NCBI GenBank assembly: GCA_003154195.1
Contig: PMCS01000029.1
Span: forward strand, 272,703-304,959
Length of the DNA stretch: 32,257 bases
Direction of reading: 5' to 3'
Source: Candidatus Omnitrophota bacterium
Lineage (GTDB): Bacteria; Omnitrophota; Gorgyraeia; Duberdicusellales; 4484-171
Positions 21,714 to 23,157 of this stretch are shown in pieces. The first letter of the stretch is position 1, and every line of letters starts with the position of its first letter. The translations under genes and the position numbers were made by a program. The notes under the pieces are model-generated. The model worked only from the letters and a program-made list of their open reading frames with translations. It was not told the origin of the DNA and searched no databases.

Positions 21714-21738
21714 TTTTCCCGCGGAGGAATATTTAACG

Positions 21739-22008
21739 ATGAAAAACCGATATAGGCGAAAAGGGTTTCTCGCGTTGATAGAAACATTAGCTGTTCTGCT
21801 GATAATTGCATTTTTGGCATATAAAATGTATGGGGGGTATTTTCGAAAAACAACCGGCGCTACGCCGGGTAACTCTTCTTCCGCCATGGATAATGACATC
21901 GATATTTCCAATCCCAGCGCCACGGTGAACGCCGCAAGAGAGAAGGTCAATGAAATCAATAAAAAAACTTCGGAGCGCGATAAACAAATCCAGGATATTG
22001 GTCTCTAG
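21739..22008 (+). CDS. Small prepilin-like single-helix membrane protein
   Basis: I choose ATG 21739, behind GGAGGAA, over the 21697 start of the ORF track, which would run into the response regulator. The 89-residue product has a basic N-terminus and 'RRKGFLALIETLAVLLIIAF', which resembles a type IV prepilin class III signal: Gly-Phe, a Glu, then a hydrophobic helix. The Glu is at +6 after the Gly instead of the usual +5. The remaining 55 residues are polar, with a Gly/Ser/Asn-rich linker followed by a charged helix 'NAAREKVNEINKKTSERDKQ' of coiled-coil type. It could be a minor pseudopilin-like protein or simply a small bitopic membrane protein. I know of no named family for it. Confidence 0.62.
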   Translation: MKNRYRRKGFLALIETLAVLLIIAFLAYKMYGGYFRKTTGATPGNSSSAMDNDIDISNPSATVNAAREKVNEINKKTSERDKQIQDIGL

Positions 22009-22100
22009 TAAGGTATTGGTGAAGGTCAGCCACGGATGCGGCAATCGCTAATAAAAGCAAAGGGTTTTTAACCAATAAAGTTTACATAATATTATTTATA

Positions 22101-22147
22101 TCACAATATATTGTATTTTAGTTATTGCAGTATACAATATATTGTGA
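22101..22147. promoter_or_regulatory. Tandem NrdR-box-like operator
   Basis: Two copies of the 12-bp palindrome ACAATATATTGT stand at 22103-22114 and 22134-22145, 31 bp apart centre to centre. Taken as 16-bp boxes (22101-22116 and 22132-22147) they are separated by a 15-bp linker. The NrdR repressor recognises paired boxes close to acaCwAtATaTwGtgt with this spacing, so both sequence and geometry fit. The flanks also make the pair a 19-bp perfect inverted repeat (22098-22116 against 22132-22150). The right box ends 19 bases before the DUF192 start. NrdR normally controls ribonucleotide reductase genes, none of which is visible here. Confidence 0.68.
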
Positions 22148-22166
22148 TATAGCCCGAGAAATCCCC

Positions 22167-22607
22167 ATGTTCAAAAAAATTATCTTTACTCTATCAGCAT
22201 TTTTTTTGGTAATTAACATCGCGGCGGCGCAAACCGAAATTTCCATCAATTTTAGAAAATATGCATTTAAGGCAAAACTTGCCTTAACGCCGCAGGAGCA
22301 GATAAAGGGTTTAATGTTTTGTAAAAAACTGGCACAGAATAGGGGGATGTTTTTTGTTTTCAATACTGAAGAGGAGCGCAATTTCTGGATGAAAAATACT
22401 TTGATACCTTTGGATATTATCTGGATTAATAAAGACAAAGAAGTTGTTTATATAAAAAATGAAGCACCGCCATGCAATGATACTGTTTGTCCTATAATCA
22501 GTCCCCAGGCCAAAGCGATGTACGTTCTAGAGTTAAACGGCGGCGTTTGCGAAAAAATCGGTTTAAAGACGGGCGATAAATTGGATTTCGAGGTAGGTTT
22601 ACCCTGA
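22167..22607 (+). CDS. Secreted DUF192 family protein
   Basis: I use ATG 22167 because it gives a clean signal peptide, 'MFKKIIFTLSAFFLVINIAA' with a likely cut after Ala-Ala-Gln; the longer ORF from 22125 would run through the palindromic operator. The 146-residue protein matches DUF192 (PF02643): 'GLMFCKKL', 'RGMFFVFNTEEERNFWMKNT' and 'IPLDIIWINKDKEVVYIKN', ending with 'YVLELNGGVCEKIGLKTGDK'. Extra Cys residues (in 'PPCNDTVCP') may form a periplasmic disulfide. Function of the family is unknown; it is exported to the periplasm or outer face. No good Shine-Dalgarno is seen. The NrdR-like boxes upstream suggest regulation by deoxynucleotide status, which would be new for this family as far as I know. 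Confidence 0.9.
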   Translation: MFKKIIFTLSAFFLVINIAAAQTEISINFRKYAFKAKLALTPQEQIKGLMFCKKLAQNRGMFFVFNTEEERNFWMKNTLIPLDIIWINKDKEVVYIKNEAPPCNDTVCPIISPQAKAMYVLELNGGVCEKIGLKTGDKLDFEVGLP

Positions 22608-22631
22608 GAGGGCATAGTCAAGCCTCATTTT
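22608..22631 (+). terminator. Possible weak intrinsic terminator after DUF192
   Basis: Directly after the stop, GAGGGC and GCCTC can pair (five pairs and one bulged G) around an 8-base loop, followed by ATTTT. The stem is short and the U-tract poor, so this is tentative. Confidence 0.3.
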
Positions 22632-22745
22632 GCTTGTCGCCTGACGGCAGGCAGGCCTGTTACCGGAAGCGCTGCAACAAGGGTGTGTTCAGGCGTGTTT
22701 TATCTTTTCCATCCGCGCAGCGGGTAATTTTTATTTTTTGCTGCG

Positions 22746-22778
22746 CAAAAAATAAAAAGAGGGGGCTCTTCGCCCCCT
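22746..22778 (-). terminator. Intrinsic terminator of the candidate small RNA
   Basis: Minus-strand stem AGGGGGC / GCCCCCT (22778-22772 with 22766-22760) has a GAAGA loop and a T-tract CTTTTTATTTTTT (22759 to about 22747). Read on the plus strand there is no T-tract after the stem, so it acts only for minus-strand transcription. Confidence 0.75.
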
Positions 22779-22867
22779 GAGGTTGGTAGTAATCTCACCT
22801 CCAAGATTTAAGTCGTTATTTTTATTTTTTATCCCCCTGGTAATTACTTCTTTTTGTCCTCCTTTCG
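22746..22867 (-). ncRNA. Candidate small RNA, about 120 nt
   Basis: On the minus strand a promoter (-35 TTGCTA, 17-base spacer, -10 TTATAT) predicts a start near 22867. About 120 bases on there is a textbook intrinsic terminator, AGGGGGC-GAAGA-GCCCCCT followed by CTTTTTATTTTTT. No sensible reading frame lies between: two purine-rich Shine-Dalgarno-like strings (AAAGGAGG and TTGGAGGTGAG) are not followed by usable start codons. A short stem GAGGT/ACCTC precedes the terminator. The simplest reading is an orphan small RNA with anti-SD-like, CU-binding surfaces. It could also be a remnant leader of a lost gene. I recognise no named RNA family. Confidence 0.45.
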
Positions 22868-22873
22868 CATTAG

Positions 22874-22902
22874 ATATAACATACAAACAAGTATCTTAGC
22901 AA
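22874..22902 (-). promoter_or_regulatory. Candidate minus-strand promoter of the small RNA
   Basis: Read on the minus strand, TTGCTA (22902-22897) and TTATAT (22879-22874) are separated by 17 bases. They match four of six consensus bases at each box. Transcription would run toward the intrinsic terminator at 22778-22746. Confidence 0.42.
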
Positions 22903-22936
22903 GGGGTAAAAGCACTAATTTTGAAAACGTTTTCCG

Positions 22937-22976
22937 AACCGAAGAATTCCTGCCGGACGGCAGGAATTCTTCGGTT
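22937..22976. repeat. Perfect 19-bp inverted repeat (hairpin)
   Basis: AACCGAAGAATTCCTGCCG (22937-22955) and its exact reverse complement (22958-22976) are separated by only GA. As RNA this would be a very stable hairpin. It lacks an immediate U-tract on either strand, so it is not a plain terminator. It may be a repetitive extragenic palindrome or an RNA-stability element. Confidence 0.8.
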
Positions 22977-22990
22977 AAGAGAGATTTTTC

Positions 22991-23026
22991 TTGACCAAAA
23001 TAAAATAGATAGTAAAATTTTACTAT
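22991..23026 (+). promoter_or_regulatory. Strong candidate promoter with 18-bp palindromic operator, upstream of the biosynthetic cluster
   Basis: TTGACC (22991-22996) and TAAAAT (23013-23018) each match five of six consensus bases and are 16 bases apart. The -10 sits inside the perfect 18-bp palindrome ATAGTAAAATTTTACTAT (23009-23026), an ideal place for a dimeric repressor. The predicted transcript would carry a leader of roughly 130 bases with three small hairpins before the ligase ATG at 23158, which itself has no clear Shine-Dalgarno. Confidence 0.55.
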
Positions 23027-23157
23027 TGTTTTTTGCGGAGCAAAAAACAACTGTCATCCGCTTACGCGGATAAAAAATATAAGAAGTATTCTAAACGTGC
23101 TTCATGTTTTGTGAGCCACGATAGATAGGCTCAAATATACATAGCGATTGGCCAAAT

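Follow-up and report, generated by a model that had tools for sequence, protein, structure and literature searches.

Described NrdR operators and the element in front of the DUF192 gene

To our knowledge, NrdR is described as specific to ribonucleotide reductase (RNR) genes, and we know of no connection of DUF192 proteins to nucleotide metabolism. The NrdR box has the consensus acaCwAtATaTwGtg (Rodionov and Gelfand 2005, as quoted in PMC4009431), and known NrdR proteins form, in the presence of ATP and dATP, a tetramer on paired boxes, for which spacers of about 15–17 bp are best (PMC12051234). In the literature searched, topA of Pseudomonas aeruginosa was the only non-reductase target found, and it is experimentally supported (PMC4409342). 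No paper joining Omnitrophota and NrdR was found in this search.

The window, i.e. the whole stretch of 32,257 nucleotides that was analysed, contains at positions 22097–22151 the element TATATCACAATATATTGTAT - 15 nt - ATACAATATATTGTGATATA. Both cores are ACAATATATTGT (12 bp each; 22103–22114 and 22134–22145), and their starts are 31 bp apart. They belong to two boxes, TCACAATATATTGTAT (22101–22116) and ATACAATATATTGTGA (22132–22147), which are separated by a spacer of 15 bp (22117–22131) and repeat with a period of 31 bp, or about three helical turns. These coordinates confirm the tandem arrangement given in the preliminary description (cores 31 bp apart, 16-bp boxes, 15-bp linker). The 16-bp boxes were judged against acaCwAtATaTwGtgt; the first agrees with ACACWATATATWGTGT in 14 of 16 positions, and the second, which is also covered by the operator model R1 (see below), matches the consensus in 14 of 16 positions as well. 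Both boxes lie inside a perfect inverted repeat (22097–22151), the arms of which (22097–22116 and 22132–22151) show a complementarity of 100%. The perfect pairing had been recognised before, but the arms comprise 20 bp and not 19 bp as originally stated. Boxes, spacer and repeat were annotated without a strand.

Five matches to the 15-bp near-consensus were observed in the window in comparison to 0.72 expected, and four of these five, with both strands counted, belong to the element at 22097–22151; none of 100 shuffled windows gave five such matches. The exact 12-mer core is absent elsewhere in the assembly (2.48 Mb, 34 contigs). Because the core occurs at this one place in the genome, a repeat element was rejected as an explanation.

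The gene next downstream (22167–22607, + strand) is the presumed target and encodes a secreted DUF192 protein of 146 amino acids (Pfam PF02643, E = 7.4e-34; 116.2 bits at a gathering cut-off of 27). Its N-terminus, MFKKIIFTLSAFFLVINIAAAQ, reads as a signal peptide, in line with the earlier annotation of this gene. Domain and signal-peptide-like N-terminus are shared with the secreted proteins of DUF192 (COG1430), for which two structures of relatives are solved (PDB 3m7a and 3pjy), neither with an assigned function. The operator spans 19–66 bp upstream of the DUF192 ATG and thus ends at a distance of 19 bp from it. As the preceding gene runs in the same direction (+ strand, end at 22008), the operator fronts the DUF192 gene only.

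With the tandem NrdR operators of RNR genes, the element shares the two 16-bp palindromes, the consensus and the 15-bp spacer. It differs in its target, since such operators are expected upstream of an RNR operon, whereas here the next gene encodes a DUF192 protein and no RNR is present in the window. In P. aeruginosa, an NrdR box likewise precedes a non-reductase gene, but only one box is located at topA, which is reported to be activated, whereas the DUF192 gene is preceded by a full tandem pair with near-ideal spacing (PMC4409342).

NrdR, nrdJ and the ranking of operator sites

The preliminary description had proposed to look for nrdR and for the same boxes at the reductase genes, and both were found. 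The nrdR gene (contig C22, 85850–86287; TIGR00244, E = 2.9e-60) encodes Zn-ribbon and ATP-cone domains. The sole RNR found with the two profiles searched is an nrdJ-like class II enzyme, and the profile search gave no match to NrdD in the genome. Upstream of nrdJ, a tandem pair is located at C22:192516–192556 (boxes TCAATATATTGTGA and ATACAATATGTAG) with the identical spacing of 31 bp, followed by a -35 region (TTGACA) and a -10 region (TATAAA). This operator starts about 170 bp upstream of the gene, just before the -35 region, whereas the DUF192 operator occupies positions -66 to -19 relative to the ATG.

The genome was scanned by a pattern search and by R1, a sequence-only Infernal model built from 16 nrdJ operators, all of which originate from other genomes. 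With R1, the best match in this genome was the nrdJ operator at 30.2 bits; the DUF192 site came next with 29.2 bits (E = 2.7e-6 per genome). A position weight matrix (PWM) of the boxes, derived from the nrdJ boxes of other genomes, yielded 40.6 bits for the DUF192 pair, which is above every nrdJ pair (22–40 bits, with one outlier at -1.9). Together with the 14 of 16 matches per box and the 15-bp spacer, the R1 result upholds the earlier assignment to NrdR consensus and spacing. Recurrence of the element at unrelated loci, which had been named as an argument against this assignment, was not observed, as the exact core is unique and the third independent R1 site in this genome reached 16.8 bits. 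Further candidates in this genome, among them those upstream of pnp and of a PilZ-like gene, had scores close to background and were rejected.

Across the order (42 genomes), R1 detected about 31 distinct sites at E ≤ 1e-4, about 28 of them upstream of RNR genes. These are nrdJ genes, except for one gene that we read as nrdD-like (L096); a comparable site in another genome (G035) precedes a Pfam-confirmed NrdD. The three non-RNR sites at this threshold are the DUF192 site, which is the best of them, a pilM site and an rsmH site. NrdR-like tandem sites were seen before rsmH (L122, G027:C36:893–944) and mraZ/rsmH (L095, G026:C9:61390–61430) in two relatives, and R1 matches before genes for a PilQ/GspD-like secretin (L123, G014:C84:159) and a PEP-CTERM-type ATPase (L128, G002:C22:10182).

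The presence of nrdR, the same boxes at nrdJ, the rank of the site with R1 and the unique core all argue that a non-reductase gene is preceded here by an NrdR-type operator. It is therefore likely, with a probability of roughly three in four, that positions 22101–22147 represent a tandem NrdR operator that would place the single DUF192 gene under the control of NrdR together with nrdJ.

Conservation in relatives

In the family, nrdR was found in 33 of the 36 other genomes (34 of 37 including this one), and tandem boxes are present at nearly every examined nrdJ gene of the 36 relatives. The spacing of these boxes is 30–32 bp (30, 31 and 32 bp in 1, 17 and 12 cases, respectively), and the operators are not perfect inverted repeats. 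About ten relatives possess a second nrdJ-like paralogue with about 54–60% identity (e.g. G005:C1:390533 and G004:C1:1550487), which is absent in the genome studied here.

The link between operator and DUF192 gene is not conserved. The inspection of orthologous DUF192 genes that had also been proposed gave a negative result: within 500 bp upstream of the DUF192 homologues, tandem boxes occurred in none of 17 other family genomes, none of which belongs to the same genus. Three upstream checks (L042–L044) were invalid, as they were based on weak hits with the start set at a poor tblastn match; all 17 genomes retain a valid locus. Likewise, NrdR boxes, which this locus has, were present at none of 80 DUF192 loci from many phyla that were collected with an alignment query (best PWM score 3.5). 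For this reason, the claim is confined to this lineage.

Two of the compared DUF192 regions have kept a neighbour known from the window. In G007, the gene of a PHP-like protein adjoins the DUF192 gene, and in G011 that of the small pseudopilin-like protein is located about 1.1 kb from it. The other regions retained no window neighbours besides distant glycosyltransferase matches.

Proposed regulation and alternative explanations

At a high dATP level, NrdR carrying both ATP and dATP would form the tetramer, with one dimer per box on a common face of the helix. As the operator is located 19–66 bp before the ATG, the bound protein would directly cover the promoter or start region of the DUF192 gene, and transcription would be blocked. 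A drop of the dNTP level would release NrdR, and nrdJ and the DUF192 gene would be co-expressed. The connection between operator and DUF192 gene would have been gained in this lineage only. We infer binding of NrdR, repression, the position of the promoter and any physiological role of the DUF192 protein from the sequence.

Among the alternatives raised in the preliminary description, membership of the DUF192 gene in the NrdR regulon of this lineage is the best supported, with nrdR present, similar boxes at nrdJ also 31 bp apart and no recurrence of the element elsewhere. Alternatively, the boxes could be left over from an nrd gene after its loss or relocation, and would then be useless to the DUF192 gene. 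The second nrdJ paralogue of several relatives, which is missing here, and the lack of conservation at DUF192 genes would fit this explanation. However, no remnant of an RNR gene was found in the window (best tblastn E = 1.7), and the places of the second paralogue in the relatives gave no R1 match at E ≤ 1e-4. The site ends only 19 bp before the ATG, G007 and G011 each keep one window neighbour near the DUF192 gene, and the site is not degraded but the strongest box-PWM match of all, which is unexpected for an abandoned operator. A displaced nrd gene is therefore considered improbable.

The inverted repeat might also act as an RNA hairpin, i.e. as a leader structure or terminator, instead of a DNA operator. 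With -23.9 kcal/mol and z = -5.97 it would be very stable for its composition, and perfect arms of 20 bp go beyond the need of two 12-bp palindromes. Nevertheless, every arm is itself palindromic, follows the NrdR consensus and is spaced exactly as at nrdJ; a hairpin alone leaves the box palindromes, the 31-bp period and the nrdJ match unexplained. As the nrdJ operators of the relatives are imperfect inverted repeats, the complementarity of the arms is not the conserved property, whereas the paired boxes are. Since no T-run follows the repeat, it is not a typical terminator, and no Rfam match was obtained; terminator and riboswitch were therefore rejected, and a hairpin function is just as improbable as a displaced nrd gene. 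A different regulator recognising a similar palindrome, such as a factor acting at the conserved pilM promoter, is a slightly more remote explanation. Indeed, a very similar core pair in front of the HTH-pilM operon is conserved across about 25 genomes, but its cores are 29 bp (21 cases) or 30 bp (4 cases) apart in comparison to mostly 31–32 bp at nrdJ and 31 bp at the DUF192 gene. In addition, the pilM site of this genome reached 15.4 bits, whereas the DUF192 site, with its 29.2 bits, is nrdJ-like.

An NrdR operator of full strength at the DUF192 gene would be a hint at when this gene is expressed. It suggests that a secreted DUF192 protein is switched together with the supply of DNA precursors, and that the NrdR regulon may gain unrelated members.

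The conserved pair upstream of the pilM operon

The NrdR-like core pair upstream of the HTH-pilM type IV pilus operon was picked up by R1. In an alignment of 28 upstream regions, TTGACA, a -10 region and a small HTH_17 gene come after the pair, which lies about 315 bp ahead of pilM. In this genome it is located at C8:136839–136877 (L138:1501–1539; other pilM loci L140–L169). Among the regions above the cut-off, one case with a spacing of 31 bp occurred beside those with 29 and 30 bp. In many of the genomes, pilM adjoins lipA. With a 13-bp instead of a 16-bp spacer, binding was 1.4 to 11 times weaker in three of four characterised NrdR proteins and about 100 times weaker in the fourth (PMC12051234). 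The pilM pair may be a weak NrdR site or the site of another factor. It is conceivable, though rather doubtful, that NrdR of this family is not restricted to reductase genes and controls, in addition to nrdJ, functions of the cell surface through the HTH-pilM operon (in most genera, with 29–30 bp) and, in this species, the DUF192 gene, which would couple structures on the surface or the uptake of DNA to the pool of dNTPs. If confirmed, the pilM pair would link nucleotide sensing to type IV pili across an uncultured family.

Promoter region and neighbouring sequences

No convincing promoter and no convincing Shine-Dalgarno sequence were found in the region upstream of the DUF192 gene. A weak candidate sigma-70 promoter, TTAACC-N16-TATTAT (22068–22095, + strand), adjoins box 1 on its upstream side; it is a consensus match only (9/12), and a similar number of such sites is expected by chance. 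An alternative candidate, TTGCAG-N17-TATAGC, which was recognised by eye only, overlaps box 2, and its TGTGATATA resembles the -10 region of nrdJ.

Directly upstream of the operator, positions 21724–22008 encode a small protein whose N-terminus (KGFLALIETLAVLLIIAFLAYKMY) resembles that of type IV pseudopilins; the protein had no match in Pfam or NCBIfam. Downstream of the DUF192 gene, about 550 bp (22608–23157) are devoid of a long gene and contain several terminator-like stem-loops.
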